The position numbers and the translations under genes were made by a program. Under the pieces are notes generated by a model. That model ran no database searches, was not told the DNA's origin, and saw only the letters and a list, made by a program, of their open reading frames with translations. A stretch of 64,000 bases of DNA, taken from Aeromicrobium sp. (lineage in GTDB: Bacteria; Actinomycetota; Coriobacteriia; Anaerosomatales; Anaerosomataceae). The DNA is taken from positions 62,001 through 126,000 of the forward strand of contig JADIIM010000024.1 in assembly GCA_015351705.1 (NCBI GenBank), read 5' to 3'. Of this stretch, positions 9,668-22,273 are shown one piece after another (the first letter of the stretch is position 1; each line of letters starts with the position of its first letter).

Positions 9668-11173
9668 GTGGAAGTCATCATCATCGGAGGCGGCATCGCC
9701 GGCCTGGGTGCCGCCTACAAGGTCCGTCGAGCTGCCGAGGCCGGGTACGACGTCACGTTCACGCTCGTAGAGCGCGATGACCGCCTCGGCGGGAAGATCT
9801 GGACCGACATCGCCGAGGACCCCGACGGCGGACGATACATCGCCGACGGCGGCAGCGACTCGTTTCTCACCGACAAGACCGCCGTCCACCGCGTGGCGAA
9901 GCTCCTCGGCGTGTTCGACGAGGAGTGCGGGACGCTCGAGGAGAACAAGAAGACGTTCATCGTCAAGCGCGGGAAGCTCGTTGAGATGCCCGACGGCATG
10001 ATGATGTTCGCGCCAACCAAGCTCGTACCGCTCGCCACCTCGCGGCTGTACTCGTGGCCAGCCAAGTTCCGCATGGCGCTCGATTTCGTGATACCGCGGA
10101 AGGTCCGCTGGGCCGAGGGAGAGACCGCGGCCGACCACGACGAGACGCTTGAGAGCCTGGTGGTCCGGCGGCTGGGCCGAGAGGCGCTCGATCGCCTCGC
10201 CGAGCCGCTCGCGGCAGGCGTGAACGGCGATCTGGCCTCCGAGATGTCGGTGGCCGCGCGCTACCCGATGCTGCTCGACATGGAGCAGCAGCACGGCTCG
10301 CTCGTGCGCGGCTTCCTCGCGCAGCGCAAGAAGGTCGAGGAGATCAAGCGCAGGTACCCGCCCAAGCCAGGCGCCAAGCGGCGCACCTTCTTCTCATCGT
10401 TCAACGAGGGCCTGCAGTTCATCTGCGACCGCATGGCCGACGCGGCGGGGCGCGAGCACATCCGCACGGGCGTGGGCGCGACCGCCATCGAGCGTGCGGG
10501 CGACGGGTGGCGCGTGACCCTCACGACCGGAGAGGTGCTTGAGGCCGACGCGGTCATCGTGGCCACCGAGGTGTGGGCCGCCGCCGGTCTCGCCCGTGGC
10601 GTTGACGGGGCGCTTGCGTCGCTTCTGGACACGATCCCGTCCTCGTCGTGCGCGACTGCGATCCTTGCGTTCGATGCGGCAGACTATCCGCATGACACCC
10701 GCTGGCACGGTGTGCTCACGCCGTCGGTGGAGCGCCGACCGCTCACCGGCGTGTCGCTCATGAGCTCCAAGTGGCCGGACCGTGCGCCGGAAGGCCGGGT
10801 GCTCTTCCGCGGGTTCCTCGGCGGACCGCGCGACCCGGAGGTCCTCGAGCAGAGCGACGAGGCGCTGCTGGAGCTCGCGCGCACGCAGCTTGCCGAGCTC
10901 ATCGGCATCAGGCCGGATGCGCGTCCGCGCTACGCGAAGCTCTTCCGCTGGGAGAAGGGGATGCCGCAGTACACGCTCGGCCATCTGGACCGTGTCGACG
11001 AGATCGAGCGCCTGACAGCCGGGCTGCGTGGGTTCGGGCTGGCGGGCAATGCGTACCGCGGCGTGGGCGTGCCCAACGCGCTCGAAAGCGGGGAGCAGGC
11101 GGTCTCCAAGGTGCTTGCCGAGGTCGGCATCACCCTTGCCGAGGACAGCGTCGAAGAGAGGCGGGTCTACTAG
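9668..11173 (+). CDS. hemY: Protoporphyrinogen/coproporphyrinogen oxidase, copy 1
   Basis: This FAD enzyme removes six electrons from a porphyrinogen to form the porphyrin; in the coproporphyrin-dependent route it is called CgoX. The 501-residue protein has the N-terminal dinucleotide fold IIIGGGIAGLGAAYKVRRA, then DGGSDSFLTDK, MPDGMMMFAPTKLVPL, RFLVRRLGREALDRLAEPL-like helices, and the C-terminal FAD-contacting PQYTLGHLDRVDEIERL and GNAYRGVGVPNALESGE. It starts at GTG 9668 with AGAGGAG upstream. A close paralogue begins two bases after its stop, so this is a tandem duplication. The partner HemH lies just upstream. Confidence 0.9.
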   Translation: MEVIIIGGGIAGLGAAYKVRRAAEAGYDVTFTLVERDDRLGGKIWTDIAEDPDGGRYIADGGSDSFLTDKTAVHRVAKLLGVFDEECGTLEENKKTFIVKRGKLVEMPDGMMMFAPTKLVPLATSRLYSWPAKFRMALDFVIPRKVRWAEGETAADHDETLESLVVRRLGREALDRLAEPLAAGVNGDLASEMSVAARYPMLLDMEQQHGSLVRGFLAQRKKVEEIKRRYPPKPGAKRRTFFSSFNEGLQFICDRMADAAGREHIRTGVGATAIERAGDGWRVTLTTGEVLEADAVIVATEVWAAAGLARGVDGALASLLDTIPSSSCATAILAFDAADYPHDTRWHGVLTPSVERRPLTGVSLMSSKWPDRAPEGRVLFRGFLGGPRDPEVLEQSDEALLELARTQLAELIGIRPDARPRYAKLFRWEKGMPQYTLGHLDRVDEIERLTAGLRGFGLAGNAYRGVGVPNALESGEQAVSKVLAEVGITLAEDSVEERRVY

Positions 11174-11174
11174 C

Positions 11175-12686
11175 GTGAAGAAGATCATCATCATCGGAGG
11201 CGGTGTGGCCGGGCTCGGGGCGGCGTACAAGGTGCGGCGCGCGGCCGAGGCGGGTCACGATGTCGACTGCGTGCTCGTTGAGAAGGACGCCCGGCTCGGC
11301 GGCAAGCTCGCCACGGACATCGTCGCTGACCCCGAAGGCGGCGAGTACGTCGTCGACGGTGGGAGCGACGCCTTCGTCTCCACCAAGCCGGCTGTCGCGC
11401 GCATTGCGCGGATGCTGGGTCTCGGCGACTCGATGGTGCCCGCACGCGAGGAGAACAAGAAGACGCTGATCGTGAAGGGCAAGCGCCTCGTGGAGCTCCC
11501 CGACGGCATCATGATGTTCGCGCCCACCAAGCTCGTGCCGCTGGCCACCACGTCCCTCTACTCCTGGCCCGCGAAATTCCGCATGGCGCTCGACTGGTTC
11601 TTGCCGCCCAAAGTGCGCTGGGCCGAGGGCGAGACGGCGCAGGACCATGACGAGACGCTTGAGAGCTTCGTCGTGCGCCGCATGGGCCGCGAGTCGCTCG
11701 ACCGTCTCGCCGAGCCGCTCGTGGGCGGAGTCCACGCCTCAGACCCGCGCGAGATGTCGCTTGCCGCGACGTTTCCCAACTTCCTCGAGATGGAGCAGGA
11801 GTTCGGCTCGCTCATCCGCGGGTTCCTGGCCGAGCGCAAGAAGCGCGAGGCGATGCGCAAGAAGTATCCGCCCAAGCCGGGCGCCAAGCCATGGGCGTTC
11901 TTCAACACCTTCTACCGTGGCATGCAGCAGCTCACCGACGGCATGGCCGATGCGGTGGGCCGCGAGCGCATCATCACCGGCGCCGCGGTGACCGTGGTCG
12001 ACCGCGACGGCGCTGGCTGGCGCGTGACGCTCGATGACGGCCGCGTGCTGGAGGGTGACGCGGTGATCGTGGCCACCGAGGCGTGGGCGGCCGAGCCGCT
12101 GGCCCGGCACGTCGAGCCTGCGATCGCCGATCTGCTCGCGACGATCCCGTGTTCCTCCTCAGCCACCGTGCCGATGGCCTTCCGGTCCGAGGACTTCCCC
12201 TCAGACCGGCAGTGGTTCGGCATCCTCTCGCCGATCGTGGAGAACCGCCCGCTGCTCGCCGTCACGCTCTCCTCCTCGAAGTGGCCGGACCGGTCACCGG
12301 AGGGCCGCGTGCTCCTCCGTGGCTTCATCGGCGGGCCGCGCAACCAGCACCTGCTCGAGGCGGATGACGCCGAGATCATCGAGACCATTCGCGCGCAGAT
12401 CGTGGACCTGCTCGGCATGAAGGCCGATGCGCAGCCCGTCTTCGCGAGCGTCTACCGCTGGAACGGCGGCATGCCCCAGTACACGCTCGGGCATCTCGAC
12501 CGCGTGGACGAGATCGAGCGGTTGAGCGCCGAGGTCTCCGGCTTTGCGCTCGCCGGCGGCGCGTACCGCGGCGTGGGGATCCCCAACTGCATCGAGAGCG
12601 GGGAGCGGGCGGTCACCAAGGTGCTGGCTGACGTCGGCATCGGCTACGACGAGGACACGTCGCCGAAGCGTCCGCCAGGACTGTAG
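11175..12686 (+). CDS. Protoporphyrinogen/coproporphyrinogen oxidase, copy 2
   Basis: This is a second 503-residue FAD-dependent porphyrinogen oxidase, colinear with the copy just upstream over its whole length. It has the same landmarks: IIIIGGGVAGLGAAYKVRRA, DGGSDAFVSTKPA, LPDGIMMFAPTKLVPL, PQYTLGHLDRVDEIERL and GGAYRGVGIPNCIESGE. All FAD-binding elements are intact, so it is not an obvious pseudogene. The GTG start at 11175 is one base after the stop of copy 1. A longer frame beginning at 11028 only adds residues that overlap copy 1 and was not used. It may differ in substrate (copro- versus protoporphyrinogen) or in electron acceptor, but the sequence does not say which. Confidence 0.87.
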   Translation: MKKIIIIGGGVAGLGAAYKVRRAAEAGHDVDCVLVEKDARLGGKLATDIVADPEGGEYVVDGGSDAFVSTKPAVARIARMLGLGDSMVPAREENKKTLIVKGKRLVELPDGIMMFAPTKLVPLATTSLYSWPAKFRMALDWFLPPKVRWAEGETAQDHDETLESFVVRRMGRESLDRLAEPLVGGVHASDPREMSLAATFPNFLEMEQEFGSLIRGFLAERKKREAMRKKYPPKPGAKPWAFFNTFYRGMQQLTDGMADAVGRERIITGAAVTVVDRDGAGWRVTLDDGRVLEGDAVIVATEAWAAEPLARHVEPAIADLLATIPCSSSATVPMAFRSEDFPSDRQWFGILSPIVENRPLLAVTLSSSKWPDRSPEGRVLLRGFIGGPRNQHLLEADDAEIIETIRAQIVDLLGMKADAQPVFASVYRWNGGMPQYTLGHLDRVDEIERLSAEVSGFALAGGAYRGVGIPNCIESGERAVTKVLADVGIGYDEDTSPKRPPGL

Positions 12687-15623: not shown

Positions 15624-16316
15624 GTGCGCATGCCGCGCGAGGTGCTTGTCGTCGATGACAACGAGAAGATCGTGGACGTCCTGCGGGCCTACCTGGAGCA
15701 GGACGGCTTCAGCGTGCGCACCGCGGCCGACGGGCCCACGGCGCTTGCCGAGGTGGCCCGCTCGGTGCCCGACATCGCTCTGCTCGACATCATGCTACCC
15801 GGGACCGACGGGCTCGAGCTCACCAGGCGCTTCCAGCGCGACCACGGGCTGCCGGTCATCCTCGTGACCGCCCGCTCGGACGAGGTGGACCGGCTGGTAG
15901 GCCTCGAGATCGGTGCTGACGACTACATCTCCAAACCGTTCAGCCCGCGCGAGGTCGTCGCCCGGGTCAAGGCCGTCCTGAGGCGCGCCGACGGCGCACG
16001 CGGGGACGGGGGTGTCCTGCGCGTGGGCGCTCTCGAGGTCGATACCGAGCGCCGCGAGGTGCGTCTTGATGGCCGAGCGTGCGATCTTACCCGTACCGAG
16101 TTCGACATCCTGTCCACGATGGCGTCGCATCCCGGCAGGGTGTACAGCAGGCTGCAGCTGCTCGAGGCCGCGACCGGGGATGCGTTCGACGGGTACGAGC
16201 GGACCATCGATGCCCACATCAAGAACATCCGCAAGAAGATCGGCGACGACCCGCGGTCACCGGCGTACGTCAGGACGGTGTTCGGCGTCGGCTACAAGGT
16301 GGAGGCCCCCCGATGA
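15624..16316 (+). CDS. OmpR-family response regulator
   Basis: This is a two-component DNA-binding regulator. Residues 1-120 form the receiver, with VVDDNEK supplying the acidic pocket, the phosphoacceptor aspartate in LLDIMLPGTDG, and the conserved lysine in ISKPFSPREVV. A winged-helix OmpR/PhoB output domain follows, with LTRTEFDILSTMASHPG and RTIDAHIKNIRKKIGDDP. The start is either GTG 15624 or ATG 15630, with AAGGAGG ending at 15619; the difference is two residues. Its stop overlaps the histidine kinase ATG (ATGA), so the pair is cotranslated. The regulon is unknown; nothing nearby resembles a repeated binding site. Confidence 0.93.
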   Translation: MRMPREVLVVDDNEKIVDVLRAYLEQDGFSVRTAADGPTALAEVARSVPDIALLDIMLPGTDGLELTRRFQRDHGLPVILVTARSDEVDRLVGLEIGADDYISKPFSPREVVARVKAVLRRADGARGDGGVLRVGALEVDTERREVRLDGRACDLTRTEFDILSTMASHPGRVYSRLQLLEAATGDAFDGYERTIDAHIKNIRKKIGDDPRSPAYVRTVFGVGYKVEAPR

Positions 16317-17464
16317 AGCGCGCAGGACTCATCCGCCAGGTCTTCATCGCAAGCCTCGCCGTTGCGCTCGCCGCAGTCCTCGCCACCGGGCTCATCGCAC
16401 GCCGCGCGCTCGAGGCCGCTTTCGCCGAGTATCTCACCACACTCGGCAGGCACATGGGCCCTGGCTCGGGCATGGCCCGGCGGTTCGTGGTCGGCACCGC
16501 AGAGGGCGCGTTCCTTACAGGCGTGGACCGTGGCATCGTCATCTCGGTGCTCATCGCCGTGCTGCTCGCAGCCGTGGGGGCGTGGCTCGTGGCGCGCCGC
16601 CTTGTCCGGCCGATCCGTCGGCTGACCGCCGCATCGCAGACACTCGCGTCAGGCGATCTCACACACCGGGTGCAGCGTGACGGTCCCGCCGAGGTGGCCG
16701 AGCTCGCCGACGCCTTCAACGACATGGCCGCCGCGCTTGAGAACGCCGAGGCGCTCAGACGTCGGCTCGTGACCGATGTCGCCCATGAACTGCGCAATCC
16801 CATCGGGGCACTCCGTGCACAGATCGAGGGGATCGCCGAGGGCGTCATCCCGGCCGACCAGGCCAGGATTGCGTCGCTCGTGGAGGACGTCGCGACGCTC
16901 TCGCGCCTCGTCGACGATCTGCAGGAGCTCTCAATCGCCGAGGCCGGACGGCTGCACTACGAGCCCACACGGTTCGACATCTGCGTCACGGTGGCCACCG
17001 AGGCCGAGAGAGCGGCGGCGCAGGTCGCGGCGGAGGTCGACATCGAGATCGCCTGTCCGGACGGGCCGGTGTCGCTGGAGGCCGATGAGTTCCGGATCGC
17101 CCAGGCGGTGAGGAATCTGCTCTCCAACGCGGTGAGGCACACCGCCCACGGCCGGATCGAAGCCCGCGTGACCTGCGAGGGCAGCGGGGTGCGCGTCGCC
17201 GTGACCGATACCGGTGAGGGGATCGCCGAGGCGGACCTCCCGCTCATCTGGGAGCGCTTCTACCGCGCGGACGCGTCACGTGCGAGCGGCACGGGGGGCA
17301 CCGGTGTGGGTCTCGCCATAACCCGGCGCATCGTCGAGGCCCACGGAGGGCGTGTCTTCGCCGAGAGCAGGCAGGGGGAGGGCAGCACGGTCGGGTTCGA
17401 CCTGCCCGGACCGTGCGATCGTGCCTGTGCGTCTGATCGCCCGAGCGCCTCCCGTACCGCCTAA
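16313..17464 (+). CDS. Membrane sensor histidine kinase
   Basis: This is the cognate sensor kinase of the regulator encoded just upstream. The 383-residue protein has an N-terminal membrane helix (about residues 8-28), a short extracytoplasmic segment of roughly 50 residues, a second helix (about 75-97) and a HAMP linker. The phosphoacceptor histidine is in TDVAHELRNPIGALRAQI, and the ATPase domain has the N box LLSNAVRHTAHG, the G1 box DTGEGI and the G2 region GTGVGLAI. The small sensory loop suggests sensing at or in the membrane. It ends four bases into the convergent hydrogenase protease gene. The signal sensed is not predictable. Confidence 0.93.
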   Translation: MKRAGLIRQVFIASLAVALAAVLATGLIARRALEAAFAEYLTTLGRHMGPGSGMARRFVVGTAEGAFLTGVDRGIVISVLIAVLLAAVGAWLVARRLVRPIRRLTAASQTLASGDLTHRVQRDGPAEVAELADAFNDMAAALENAEALRRRLVTDVAHELRNPIGALRAQIEGIAEGVIPADQARIASLVEDVATLSRLVDDLQELSIAEAGRLHYEPTRFDICVTVATEAERAAAQVAAEVDIEIACPDGPVSLEADEFRIAQAVRNLLSNAVRHTAHGRIEARVTCEGSGVRVAVTDTGEGIAEADLPLIWERFYRADASRASGTGGTGVGLAITRRIVEAHGGRVFAESRQGEGSTVGFDLPGPCDRACASDRPSASRTA

Positions 17465-18033
17465 GCTCCAGCCTGCTTGGCTGCGATGTCGGTCTTCTCG
17501 GCGGCGACACGTGCCTGCAGTTCGGCGTCTCCATCGGTCCGCGGTGTGACGAATACCCCACGCTCCTCAAGCACGTAAAGCGTCGCGGCGATCGCGCGCG
17601 GAACGGCCGCAGCGACCGGTTCAGTGAGCCCGATGGTGATCTCGGCGGGCGTCATGTCCTGCACCTGCACGCCGATGCAGTCGGCCTCGGGCATCAGTCC
17701 GATCAGCTTGGCGGCCTCGAGGACGTCTGAGAAGCGGACATCGTGGAGTGAGTGCAGCACCTGGTTGGGCGCGAAGTCCTCGGGCGCCACCCGGACCACG
17801 GTCCCTGCGGGGTGCCCGGTGCCGTCGGCCGCGTCGACCAGGAGGAGGAACTCCACGCCCCGGAAGAGGTGGATCATCCCGAGCCCCATCGTGCCGCCGT
17901 CCATGACCGCGACGTCGTCCGGGAACTCGTAGTTGCGCTGCAGCGCCTCGGCCACGGTGTTGCCGACGCCTTCGTCGCGCATGAGCACATTGCCGATGCC
18001 GAGTACCAGGACGCGCGGCTCTCCCTCGAGCAC
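17461..18033 (-). CDS. Hydrogenase maturation endopeptidase (HyaD/HybD/HupD type)
   Basis: This endopeptidase cuts the C-terminal peptide from the hydrogenase large subunit after nickel insertion. The 190-residue protein has LVLGIGNVLMRDEGVG and MDGGTMG. By alignment to HybD, the three nickel-sensing residues are present: E21, D67 in LLLVDAAD, and H97 in SLHDVRFSDVL. The GTG at 18033 is preferred to one at 18042 because AGAGG lies eight bases upstream. It is the last gene of the hydrogenase operon, and the large subunit made upstream carries a 20-residue extension after its last ligand, which is the expected substrate. About 30 C-terminal residues go beyond the HybD core. Confidence 0.92.
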   Translation of the reverse strand: MLEGEPRVLVLGIGNVLMRDEGVGNTVAEALQRNYEFPDDVAVMDGGTMGLGMIHLFRGVEFLLLVDAADGTGHPAGTVVRVAPEDFAPNQVLHSLHDVRFSDVLEAAKLIGLMPEADCIGVQVQDMTPAEITIGLTEPVAAAVPRAIAATLYVLEERGVFVTPRTDGDAELQARVAAEKTDIAAKQAGA

Positions 18034-18122
18034 AGGACACACCTCTTTCTGATCGCTGCGTCGGGTAACGGCGCAGTGGCTGCGGGGTGGACAGGCGGGA
18101 TGTTCGGGGGCGTCCCCCCGAA

Positions 18123-18201: not shown

Positions 18202-18834
18202 CTAGTGCTCCGTCTCCTTCCAGGCAAAGATGATCTTGCTCGGAGAGAAGTTGTACACGTTGGCCAGGTAGGCGTGGATCATCGTGAACACGATGAACAC
18301 CCACATCATGAAGTAGTGGATGATCCGCATGTTCATCGGACCGCCGACCATGTCAACGCCGCCCGCGAAGAAGCCCCAGTTCATGGTGGGCCCGTAGATC
18401 GCGAAGCCGGTGTAGGCCATGAGGTACGTCAGCGGGACCGTCGCCAGGTACGCGATCTTCTGGAGCGACCCGTACTTGGCCGAGATCACGGCCTCCTTGC
18501 GCAGGAACAGGTAGTACTTGACCGTCTCGAAGAACTGGTGACGGTTCTTCTCCTGCGGCAGCCAGTTCTTGATGTCCGTGTCCACCTCGCGGCTTCCAAG
18601 ATCGACGGCGGTCTTCACGAAGAAGGCCGCGATGATCCGGAACGTCAGGTTGATGAGGATCACGTACATCGCCACGAAGTGCATGCCGCGCGCCACACCC
18701 ATGAACCCGTCGAAGAACGGGTAGTGGATGTAGAAGCCCGAGAAGGCGAGCATGATCATGCAGATCAGGTTGATCCAGTGCGTGATCACGAACACCAACG
18801 GGTGGGCCTCACGATAGTGTGCGCTGCCTGCCAT
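18202..18834 (-). CDS. Membrane cytochrome b subunit of [NiFe(Se)] hydrogenase (HyaC/HupC family)
   Basis: This is the diheme cytochrome b that anchors the hydrogenase and passes electrons from the small subunit to the quinone pool. The 210-residue protein has about four or five hydrophobic helices. Candidate heme ligands are the histidines in VFVITHWINL (residue 19), GMHFVAMYV, RIIHYFMMW and FTMIHAYLANVYNF. The length is slightly below the usual 220-240. Its ATG immediately follows the TAG of the extended large subunit (TAGATG), which supports reading the large subunit through its internal TGA. The presence of this subunit indicates a respiratory, membrane-bound group 1 enzyme. Confidence 0.93.
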   Translation of the reverse strand: MAGSAHYREAHPLVFVITHWINLICMIMLAFSGFYIHYPFFDGFMGVARGMHFVAMYVILINLTFRIIAAFFVKTAVDLGSREVDTDIKNWLPQEKNRHQFFETVKYYLFLRKEAVISAKYGSLQKIAYLATVPLTYLMAYTGFAIYGPTMNWGFFAGGVDMVGGPMNMRIIHYFMMWVFIVFTMIHAYLANVYNFSPSKIIFAWKETEH

Positions 18835-20520
18835 CTACATCACCCCCATGCGGGTGGTCATGACGGTGGCTTCCTTGCCGGTCTTCGGTTCAAACACGTG
18901 AACCGCACAGCCGATTCAAGGATCGAAGCTGTGGCCGATGCGCAGGACCTCGAGCGGGCGCTCGGGGTCGGCCACCGGTGCGCCGATGAGTGCTTCCTCG
19001 AGCGGACCGCGGACGCCGTTGTCGTCACGCGGAGCGGTGTTCCACGTGGTAGGGGCGACGATCTGATAGTGATCGATCTTGCCGCCCTTGACACCGATCC
19101 AGTGCGCGACCGACCCGCGCGGCGCCTCCCAGGCGCCCACGCCGGAGCCGTTGTTGGTCTCAGCGGCCTCCCAGAACTTCACGTCGCCGCCCCTGAGGGC
19201 CTCGATGAGCTCGTTGATCCACACGAGCGCAAGATCGGCCACGTACGCTGCCTCAAGGTTGCGGGCAGCCACGCGGCCGAGCAGCGACACGAGCACCTCT
19301 GGCTTGCCGGCAACGCCGAGCGCCTCGAGGGTCGAGTCGATGAGTGCGGCAGGCGTGCGAACGCCGGTGGCACCGCCGGTGAGGTCCTGTCCGCCCTTCT
19401 CGGCGAGGTAGGCGACCACCATACGGGCGAGAGGACCGGACTCGGTCGACAGGCCCTTGCAGCGGACGGCCTTGCCCCAGGAGTACTTGTCGCTCTCGCC
19501 CGGGAAGTCATCCATGTTGTACTCGGTGAACTTCGCGACCGTCTCCCCCTGGGCGGGGTTGAGGCCGGTTCCGGACGAGTACCACGCGTGCGCGACGTCT
19601 TCCGTGACATCGTCCGGCGAGACCGTCTCAGCGGCCAGGCCCTGGGCGAAGCCACGGGGCAGATACCGCTCCTCGGCGACGCGGGACGACTTCTCGAACA
19701 CGCCCCAGCTGAGGAAGTTGCCGGTGCCGGCGCCGTACGTCGTGGCGTCGAGGATGAACGGCGCGATCGCGAGGGTGTCGGGGATGAGCGCCGTGTCGAT
19801 GAACTCCTTGACCCGGATGAACCGGAACAGGATGTCGTCGAGCTTCTCGACGGTCGGGACGAAAGCGGTGCCGCCCGGGACCGACGTCATCGGGTGCGAG
19901 AACTTGCCCGCGATGATGGCGACGATCTCGTTGGCCACGGCCTGCATCTCGAGCGCCTCGAGGTAGTGCGAGGTGGCGATCAGGTCGAGCTCCGGCGGAA
20001 GCGCGTAGCCCGGGTGGTCCCAGTAGTGACCAGTGAGGATCGACAACTGCCCGTTCTCGGCGAATGCGGTGAGGCGTGCGGCCACGGCACCGAAGTCGTT
20101 CACACGGGTGCCGGCGGCCTCGGCCAGCGCGTAGGTGTCGGCGATGTTGGCCGACAGCGCATTGATCGGGCTGACGTAGTCGAGCGCCGTCAGGTGGTAG
20201 AACCACAGGATGTGGCTGTGGAGGTACTGTGCCGCTTCGAGCAGGTTGCGCACCAGTCGGCCGCCCTCGGGGATGGTGATCCCGAGTGCGTCTTCGGTGG
20301 CCTGCGCCGAGGCGTGGCTGTGAGAGATCGGGCACACACCGCAGATGCGCTGGGAGACGTAGAACGCGTCTTCAGGACTACGGTCCAGAAGGATGGTCTC
20401 CATACCACGGTACAGAGTGCCCGCGACCCAGGCATCGACGATCTTGTTGTCCTGCACTTCGCACTCGACGCGCAGGTGACCTTCGATCCTGGTGAGCGGG
20501 TCAACGACTACTCGAGCCAC
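18835..20520 (-). CDS. [NiFeSe] hydrogenase large subunit, selenoprotein (internal TGA read as selenocysteine)
   Basis: This catalytic subunit oxidises H2 at a nickel-iron centre. The N-terminal motif RICGVCPISHSHA supplies C60 and C63. The frame meets TGA at 18916-18918 after HSFDP, and reading through gives P-U-I-G-C-A-V-H, the canonical DPCxxCxxH with U535 for the first cysteine and C538 for the second. Twenty more residues follow H541 before TAG at 18835-18837, a typical cleaved C-terminal peptide, for 561 residues in all. A SECIS-like hairpin lies 17 bases after the TGA. The start is GTG 20520, overlapping the small-subunit stop by one base. A true stop would remove two of four nickel ligands, so recoding is strongly favoured. 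It is probably matured by the protease at 17461-18033. Confidence 0.92.
18886..18905 (-). promoter_or_regulatory. Putative bacterial SECIS element
   Basis: On the transcribed strand the sequence after the TGA can form a 7-bp stem (CGGUUCA with UGAACCG) around the six-base loop CGUGUU. The spacing from TGA to the loop is 17 bases. A further UCGG/CCGG pairing below it extends the hairpin after an internal loop. Published bacterial SECIS models (bSECIS searches) expect a stem-loop with the loop about 16-37 bases after the UGA and a G in the first two loop positions; both hold here. SelB would bind it to deliver Sec-tRNA. The fold was drawn by eye and no energy was computed. Confidence 0.75.
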
Positions 20521-21740
20521 TACTTATCGCCTCCCTTCTTTGCCATCCGCTTGCGGTCATAGGCCTTTGCCGTCTCGACCGGCGGGCCATCGGGGCCGAT
20601 GCGGCCGGCGGCCTTCATGCCGAGGCCGTGTGCGACGAGCGCGGCCGCTGCCACACCGCCGACGACGGCGGCGACGCTGCCCGGCTGAACGTTGCCGAGG
20701 GTGTCGCCCATCTGCATGCTGGAGAGCCGCTTGAAGAACGGGGTGTTGTTGTCCACCCAGTTCAGGCCGCCGCAGCCGATGCACGGAGCGCCGGACTGGA
20801 CACACCAGCTGACCGAACGGTTCCAGCGGGTGATGGGGCACTGCGTGAAGGTCTGCGGACCCTTGCAGCCCACCTTGTACAGGCAGTAGCCCTTGGCCTC
20901 TTCTTCGCTGCCGAACTCGGTCACGAAGTGGCCGTTCTCGAAGTGTCCACGCCGCGGGCAGTTGTCGTGGATGGTCGAGCCGATGACGTACTCGGGGTAG
21001 TTGAGCGTGACGTCTCGGCCGGTGACCGTATCGCGATACGTGCGCGTGCGCAGCTTGGTCTTCGCGAGGAACGTCGCCGGATCATCCTCGGCCACGAGCA
21101 GCCACTGGACGACCATCGCGACGATCCACTCGGGGCTCGTCGGGCAGCAGGGCAGGTTCACGACGGGGGTCTTGATGTTGACCGTGTCGAGGAACGACTG
21201 CACGCCGATCGCCTTCGCGGGATTGGGGTGGGCGTAGACCCATCCACCGTCGACCGCGCATGCGCCGACCGCGAGGATGGCGTCCGCTCCAGCGGCGACC
21301 TCCTCGAGGATGTCGGTGCCCTTGTGGCCGTTGACGAGAAGGGTGTTGCCGTCCTCGCCCGTCATGACCGAGCCCTCGTAGATGAGCAGGTACCCGCCGG
21401 CTGCGACTGTGTCCGCGATGTTCTTCTCGGCGTCATGCCCGGCTGCCGCCATGATCGTCTCGAACGCGTTGATCGAGAGGATCTCGAGAACGACTGTGGC
21501 GACGTCAGGGGAGTCCACCTGAGCCATCGACTCGGTGCAGCCGGTGCACGAACCTCCGTTGATCCAGAGCGCGGGCTTGAGCTTCGCGCCCTTCTCGACG
21601 GCTGCGGCGATCTGGGGTGCGGCAGCCTCGGACAGCCCGAGCATTGCAGCGACGTAGCTGCAGTACTTCAGGAAGTCGCGACGGCTCACACCGCGGACCG
21701 CAAGCAGGTCGTAGATCGCACCGTGCGCCTCTTGCGCCAT
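20520..21740 (-). CDS. [NiFeSe] hydrogenase small subunit, Tat-exported
   Basis: This subunit carries three iron-sulfur clusters that wire the active site to the cytochrome b. The 406-residue precursor has a twin-arginine signal with SRRDFLKY at residues 19-26, so the complex acts outside the membrane. Proximal-cluster cysteines are C65 and C68 (GGSCTGC), C161 (GACAVDGG) and one of C198/C199. The distal site is H258, C261, C286 and C292. The medial site has four cysteines, C301, C313, C320 and C323, because the usual proline is cysteine in SWCVQSGAPCIGC. A C-terminal hydrophobic segment (about 353-372) anchors it. The ATG at 21740 has AAGGAGG at 8 bases; an ATG three codons earlier is too close. 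Confidence 0.95.
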   Translation of the reverse strand: MAQEAHGAIYDLLAVRGVSRRDFLKYCSYVAAMLGLSEAAAPQIAAAVEKGAKLKPALWINGGSCTGCTESMAQVDSPDVATVVLEILSINAFETIMAAAGHDAEKNIADTVAAGGYLLIYEGSVMTGEDGNTLLVNGHKGTDILEEVAAGADAILAVGACAVDGGWVYAHPNPAKAIGVQSFLDTVNIKTPVVNLPCCPTSPEWIVAMVVQWLLVAEDDPATFLAKTKLRTRTYRDTVTGRDVTLNYPEYVIGSTIHDNCPRRGHFENGHFVTEFGSEEEAKGYCLYKVGCKGPQTFTQCPITRWNRSVSWCVQSGAPCIGCGGLNWVDNNTPFFKRLSSMQMGDTLGNVQPGSVAAVVGGVAAAALVAHGLGMKAAGRIGPDGPPVETAKAYDRKRMAKKGGDK

Positions 21741-22273
21741 GCCATACACCTCCTTGGTGTTGGAACGGGGCTTACAGTGCCTTGCAAGACGTGGGATGAC
21801 CGGAGCGATTCCCGGTCATGCGCGTTACCGCCTCCTTTCCCTCCTTCGCGCATGGACACTTGGAGCCTCGACGCGCGAGAGGTGGCCGTGCCGGCGGGCG
21901 CCGCTCGCGAGGCTGACAGAAAGGAGTGGGCGACACGGGAGGCAGCGCGGAGTGAGCGCGCCGGATGTGCGCCGGCTTGGGCATGCATGGTGATATCGAT
22001 CGCGTATCGGAAGATCACGCACGCGTCGTGGTGAGCTGCTTCTCATCGTCCCCTCGGCAGACGGCAGCCGAACCTGGTGCATAGTCTACTGTAACGACTT
22101 GTATACGTCCACGAACGACGATGTCCTGCCGAGGGTGCCGGACAACCGTGCGGCAGGGCGGCGACTGCCCGTATCATTGCTGCTTCGTGCAGGAATCACG
22201 GACCCGGCGGCTAACACCCACGTACAGGACTTCCGGCGGTCCTGACGTTCATCCAGGGGGAGGTGGGGGTGCG
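21741..22273. other. 533-bp divergent region between hydrogenase operon and DUF2249 gene
   Basis: No gene was recognised in this stretch. It should hold the hydrogenase promoter on the minus strand and the DUF2249 gene promoter on the plus strand, but no confident -35/-10 pair was found on either. A perfect 7-bp inverted repeat, TGACCGG (21797-21803) and CCGGTCA (21812-21818), lies about 57-78 bases before the hydrogenase start and could be a leader hairpin or an operator. No FNR-type TTGAT-N4-ATCAA box was seen. Open frames here have composition unlike the neighbouring genes and no ribosome-binding sites. Confidence 0.5.

Follow-up and report, generated by a model that had tools for sequence, protein, structure and literature searches.

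A very likely selenocysteine form of group 1i hydrogenase, encoded across an in-frame TGA in Anaerosomatales

Described selenocysteine hydrogenases and the present locus

[NiFeSe] hydrogenases are valued as H2 catalysts, and a 2026 review restricts their occurrence to sulfate reducers and methanogens (PMC13188914). In the HysAB enzyme of Desulfovibrio (PDB 5JSU, 2WPN, 3ZE6), a nickel-ligand position is taken by selenocysteine (Sec, U), which is followed by x-G-C; the substitutions G491A and G491S at this glycine in D. vulgaris raise O2 stability, an effect attributed to the blocking of a hydrophilic channel (PMC7497094). The archaeal FrhA/VhuU proteins of groups 3a and 3c have a U-x-x-C nickel ligand in which Sec replaces Cys (PMC13188914). 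These archaeal proteins are group 3 enzymes with the SECIS element in an untranslated region. HydDB lists [NiFeSe] variants for groups 1a, 3a and 3c only, and treats group 1i as putative, with an undetermined role (PMC5037454). The Anaerosoma and Parvivirga isolates were assigned a group 1i [NiFe] enzyme in a paper in which a term search turned up no reference to selenocysteine (PMC9686372). A Sec form of group 1i is not listed in the relevant passages of reviews from 2022 and 2026 (PMC9312934, PMC13188914), nor did we find one published in the open-access literature searched, so that novelty is claimed only provisionally.

Here we describe a locus in a 64,000-nucleotide stretch of DNA (the window) that very likely encodes a membrane-bound respiratory [NiFeSe] hydrogenase of group 1i with Sec at the nickel site. 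This is inferred from sequence alone, without peptide, mass-spectrometry or 75Se data. That the enzyme is of the [NiFeSe] type with Sec at the nickel site had been claimed in a preliminary description; the claim is supported because the TGA is conserved throughout the order, a SECIS-like hairpin lies downstream, selD and a formate dehydrogenase gene also contain TGA, and most relatives have selA, selB and selC. The binding of selenium to nickel is a prediction for which there are no data from purified enzyme.

The closest described enzymes are those of HydDB group 1i (Eggerthellaceae, Anaerosoma, Parvivirga), which belong to the same clade as the window protein and have a similar tail (..P.TGK....(M/W)GV.). 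The described isolates have the gene set found here, namely large subunit, small subunit, cytochrome b and protease (PMC9686372, PMC5037454). However, the Eggerthellaceae enzymes have Cys in a C-x-A-C motif, whereas the window enzyme has Sec in U-x-G-C. The preliminary description had compared the Sec position with that in the known [NiFeSe] enzymes of sulfate reducers, and one correction is needed: the Sec position is the same as in HysAB, but the window protein is a member of the group 1i clade rather than a copy of HysA, with a score under the HysA cut-off and a cytochrome b gene after the large subunit. Compared with the archaeal Sec hydrogenases, the window gene differs in having its hairpin inside the coding sequence.

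The in-frame TGA and the reading frame beyond it

On the minus strand, the codon at 18918-18916 is TGA and interrupts the large-subunit frame, such that the table-11 ORF (18916-20520) ends after 534 residues with ...GHSFDP. When TGA is translated as U, a protein of 561 residues is obtained, in which U535 is followed by IGCAVH, a 20-residue tail and TAG. The join reads DP-U535-I-G-C538-A-V-H541, with the correct frame on either side. The TGA occupies the codon of the first Cys in the L4 nickel-ligand motif (FDP-U-IGC-AVH); one criterion for the [NiFeSe] class, an in-frame UGA in place of the first Cys codon of the L4 DPCxxC motif, is satisfied. Past the TGA, the frame runs 26 more codons to the TAG (18837-18835), which adjoins the cytochrome b ATG (18834-18832). 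The preliminary description had claimed that the frame ends at this TGA after HSFDP, that U-I-G-C-A-V-H and 20 residues follow, and that the TAG abuts the cytochrome b start. All three claims held on reading the codons and the translation, and the coordinates given there for the gene (Table 1) are exact once the TAG is included.

Table 1. Features of the hydrogenase locus, in window positions
Feature	Position	Strand	Details
Hydrogenase small subunit, twin-arginine signal	20520..21749	-	TIGR00391, TIGR01409
[NiFeSe] hydrogenase large subunit (very likely), read through TGA	18835..20520	-	561 aa + TAG; PF00374
Large-subunit motifs			L1 RGxE and RICGVC intact; L4 is DP-Sec-IGC-AVH (Sec inferred)
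In-frame TGA, Sec535, predicted terminal nickel ligand	18916..18918	-	TGA invariant, 66 distinct relatives
Bacterial SECIS-like hairpin	18886..18905	-	11-30 nt after UGA; stem CGGUUCA/UGAACCG, loop CGUGUU
C-terminal extension VFEPKTGKEATVMTTRMGVM, residues 542-561 after His541	18838..18897	-	Removal by protease predicted
b-type cytochrome subunit (HyaC-like)	18202..18834	-	TIGR02125 (under cut-off), PF01292
HyaD/HybD-type hydrogenase maturation protease	17461..18042	-	TIGR00072, PF01750

The L1/L2 motifs (R38, G39, E41, C60 and C63) are intact, as is the RIEGH motif, and both are unchanged throughout the aligned relatives; PF00374 (Ni-dependent hydrogenase large subunit) matches residues 38-541 with 503.6 bits, against a gathering score of 25.8. 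Among the 66 distinct clade sequences, third-codon positions past the TGA differ ~2.6-3.2 times as often as first and second positions (over codons 1-14, 11457 differences versus 4369 and 3616). It can therefore be deduced that the frame is still protein-coding beyond the stop codon. By inference from established [NiFe] hydrogenase maturation, the protease would cut the tail after His541; the 5' part of the tail overlaps the hairpin.

The genes for the small subunit, the b-type cytochrome and the maturation protease flank the large subunit on the same strand, and the rest of the operon is intact. The HyaC-like cytochrome b subunit is likely to be the exit for electrons to quinone. At the medial cluster, the small subunit has a Cys (WCVQSGAPCIGC) where Desulfovibrio [NiFe] enzymes have Pro. 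We dropped this Cys as a marker of NiFeSe enzymes, since the Cys homologues carry it too.

Conservation of the TGA, the downstream hairpin and Sec genes

The genome of the window (G000) is a 2.07 Mb MAG of 60 contigs, 96.75% complete, and was searched together with 60 relatives from Anaerosomatales/OPB41, an order of subsurface actinobacteria. This large-subunit gene with exactly one in-frame TGA was found in 55 of the 61 genomes, the copies in the relatives being 59-90% identical in protein sequence, and the TGA at the ligand position, identical in every distinct clade sequence, was confirmed by reading the codon directly. Of the six exceptions, two genomes had no match, two yielded nothing but fragments, one had a different TGA copy alone, and in G040 the ligand is Cys. 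G040 is 99% complete, has neither selA nor tRNA-Sec, and has TGC at the hydrogenase codon, as would be expected if loss of the Sec trait forces Cys. No natural residue other than Cys was met as an alternative at this site.

Beyond the order, a scan of the class found the TGA form in three other Coriobacteriia families and Cys in f19, f22 and others, while a scan of the phylum gave two TGA clades in addition to that of the window protein (clade A), namely B (FDPU[MI]AC) and C (RSFDPUIGC). The U-x-G-C motif is common to clade A, clade C and D. vulgaris HysA; clade B has U-x-A-C, and the Cys homologues mostly have C-x-A-C. Clade B (L078-L081, L094, L220-L230) consists of group 1 hydrogenases with a ...FxVR tail from the Actinomycetota families f42, f44 and f50, and some Anaerosomatales carry a member of it as an additional copy. 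The clade B hairpin is almost identical to that of clade A. Clade C (L231-L233), from the Actinomycetota family f30, is a TGA hydrogenase that is closest to Desulfovibrio HysA. It has the in-frame TGA and U-x-G-C like the window enzyme, to which it is ~40% identical, but it passes the NF033181 model (739.9 bits, cut-off 600), which the window protein does not, and its nearest structures are NiFeSe enzymes.

Three genomes (G010, G015 and G134; L075, L076, L239) encode the group 1i large subunit in a Sec version as well as a Cys version, and the Cys copies could possibly serve as selenium-free isoenzymes. In distant hydrogenase paralogues (L082-L093), TAG, TAA or TGA follows directly after DPCIACAVH, so there is no C-terminal extension to cleave. 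We considered TAG recoding in these paralogues and rejected it, the codon being an ordinary stop.

Bacterial SECIS elements have their apical loop about 16-37 nt from the UGA. Rfam at gathering thresholds reported no SECIS in the window, and the hairpin was therefore tested directly. A hairpin at ~+11 to +30 is possible in all 63 distinct clade A sequences (48-nt windows from the UGA), its loop lying within or beside CGU. Its perfect stem has a mean of 7.59 bp, versus 5.53 (sd 0.20, max 6.02) in 100 rounds of synonymous-codon shuffling with each peptide kept. The clade B stem behaves in the same way against its shuffles. The hairpin is absent from 71 Cys homologues, where the stem (4.72 versus 4.92 in shuffles) is not above the null.

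In the main register, positions +12/+29 are paired in 50 of 50 sequences (G-C in 33, C-G in 17), and +11/+30 occurs as C-G, A-U or G-C. In a second register, VDT replaces (F/I)EP in the peptide and GTC replaces GTT in the Val codon; the stem is kept, shifted by one base. Because these peptide and codon changes keep the stem, the sequence of the tail peptide is tied to the RNA pairing. The pair changes cluster by lineage, and the covariation events are therefore fewer than the sequences. No consensus emerged from RNAalifold across the 63 windows, probably because the two registers lie one base apart. With its loop at +18 to +23, the hairpin satisfies the criterion of a bacterial SECIS, a hairpin immediately downstream of the UGA, and we infer that it is one, again from sequence alone.

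Two other genes in the window's own genome have TGA at canonical Sec sites. These are selD, with TGA at its UxxK site, and the formate dehydrogenase alpha subunit (G000:C14:15020-16885, L249), the only PF00384 match in the genome, with an in-frame TGA in ARI-U-HSS. The preliminary description had proposed a search for the remaining sel genes, and held that its reading would be refuted if the complete genome had no Sec genes at all. That outcome was not obtained: selD is present, and only selA, a selB distinct from other elongation factors, and tRNA-Sec (selC) were not found in the 60-contig MAG assembly. Several candidates were rejected, the selB-like matches on C40 and C23 being EF-Tu at contig ends, a 50-bit tRNA-Sec match being tRNA-Ser(UGA), and C40:904-984 being tRNA-Tyr.

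Across the 61 genomes, selA was found in 48 and tRNA-Sec (UCA anticodon) in 46, and NCBIfam confirms selA and selB. In the sister-genus genome G011, selA, selB and tRNA-Sec(UCA) lie in one stretch. The window genome's C29, which carries selD, is collinear with G011 up to its first bases, at which point G011 continues into selA; C8 starts at base 1 with sequence found ~20 kb further along in G011. Because the ends of C29 and C8 are collinear with the G011 flanks, the missing selA, selB and selC can be placed in an assembly gap between contig ends C29:3 and C8:1. The evidence for this placement is strong but indirect, as it rests on a sister genus. In G013 (98% complete, about 10 contigs) and G045 (96%), the TGA hydrogenase is present and no selA or tRNA-Sec was detected; this stands against the Sec reading, and whether it reflects an assembly gap or something else is unresolved.

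Placement in group 1i and alternative readings

In a tree of 82 proteins, with HysA represented by one structure sequence, the window protein falls in a clade with the Coriobacteriia Cys enzymes (SH-aLRT 100), which splits into a Sec clade (98) and a Cys clade (99). The assignment to Coriobacteriia-type group 1i is based on this tree and on how two isolates of the order were classified in the literature, without a HydDB classifier call. The protein scores 409.7 bits with the NCBIfam HysA model NF045518 (cut-off 780) and 495.9 bits with NF033181 NiFeSe_hydrog (cut-off 600), and its nearest solved structures are [NiFe] enzymes. A single clade of A, C and HysA is rejected (AU p = 0.0004), as is one of A and B (AU p 4e-56); these tests used a quick tree and groups picked with the tree in view.

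At least four changes between Sec and Cys are needed on the tree. Within the Sec clade, L243 (also L156) combines Cys with a retained Gly (SFDPCVGCSIH), probably a reversion from Sec. The direction of change is unsettled, since repeated gain of Sec and an older Sec state with losses both fit; within the order, the Sec form is probably old, reverting to Cys once the Sec trait is lost. A bolder reading, which we would neither favor nor dismiss, is that Cys and Sec were exchanged several times at the nickel ligand of respiratory group 1 hydrogenases. The [NiFeSe] enzymes of Anaerosomatales (clade A), of other anaerobic Actinomycetota (clade B) and of the HysA lineage would then have separate origins, and in two of these three the adjacent Ala would have changed to Gly in the same way. 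If so, the oxidation of hydrogen by selenium-containing enzymes would be widespread among actinobacteria of the subsurface, and would have escaped notice because gene callers end the protein short of its last nickel ligands.

The alternative that survives best, although it is very unlikely, is that a Desulfovibrio-type HysA gene was acquired by transfer, in which case the enzyme would not be a Sec form of group 1i. In its favor, the U-x-G-C motif is common to both, and the medial-cluster Cys fits the [4Fe-4S] medial cluster reviewed for [NiFeSe] enzymes (PMC10779653). However, that Cys is not specific to Sec enzymes, and the HysA model score, the nearest structures, the grouping in the tree and the rejected joint clade all speak against transfer.

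Readthrough without Sec, in which UGA is reassigned to Trp or Gly or a near-cognate tRNA places Cys or Trp, is all but excluded. UGA reassignment exists in other bacteria, and there is no protein evidence here. Against this, in-frame TGA occurs at known Sec positions of three genes (hydrogenase, selD and formate dehydrogenase), the relatives have tRNA-Sec(UCA), selA and selB, and the sole natural alternative at the ligand site is Cys. Finally, a genuine stop or sequencing error leaving a truncated, non-functional pseudogene, for which the termination of standard gene calls at residue 534 and the lack of selA, selB and tRNA-Sec in the genome's own assembly could be cited, can be practically ruled out, as the TGA does not vary among dozens of species with independent assemblies, the codons that follow it are constrained as protein-coding sequence and contain a conserved hairpin, and the remaining operon is intact.

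For the preferred reading, a Sec-containing group 1i enzyme, the following course can be proposed. With the ribosome at UGA535, the hairpin would recruit SelB with Sec-tRNA(Sec), and Sec would substitute for the first Cys of DPCxxCxxH, as the sequence indicates and no protein has yet shown. The further steps are inferred from established hydrogenase biology. Hyp proteins would load the NiFe(CN)2CO centre with Sec535 as a terminal nickel ligand, after which the co-encoded protease would remove the tail. The complex of large and small subunits would be exported by Tat and oxidise H2, with the electrons flowing along the Fe-S relay to cytochrome b and on to quinone. High activity and O2 tolerance, which the preliminary description called not shown, are still untested for this enzyme.

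A Sec-containing group 1i enzyme that is linked to cytochrome b and spread across an order whose cultured members include H2 oxidisers would add a distinct lineage to the [NiFeSe] hydrogenases. The natural Sec and Cys versions, at times in one genome, offer a system for asking why selenium is used at nickel. For annotation, standard gene calls in Anaerosomatales genomes drop two of the four nickel ligands.

Elsewhere in the window, genes for a response regulator and a histidine kinase (15624-17464, + strand) are convergent with the hydrogenase operon, to which a regulatory link is at most conjectural. Further away, two similar tandem genes resembling protoporphyrinogen/coproporphyrinogen oxidase (9668-11173 and 11028-12686, + strand) come after hemE- and hemH-like genes.
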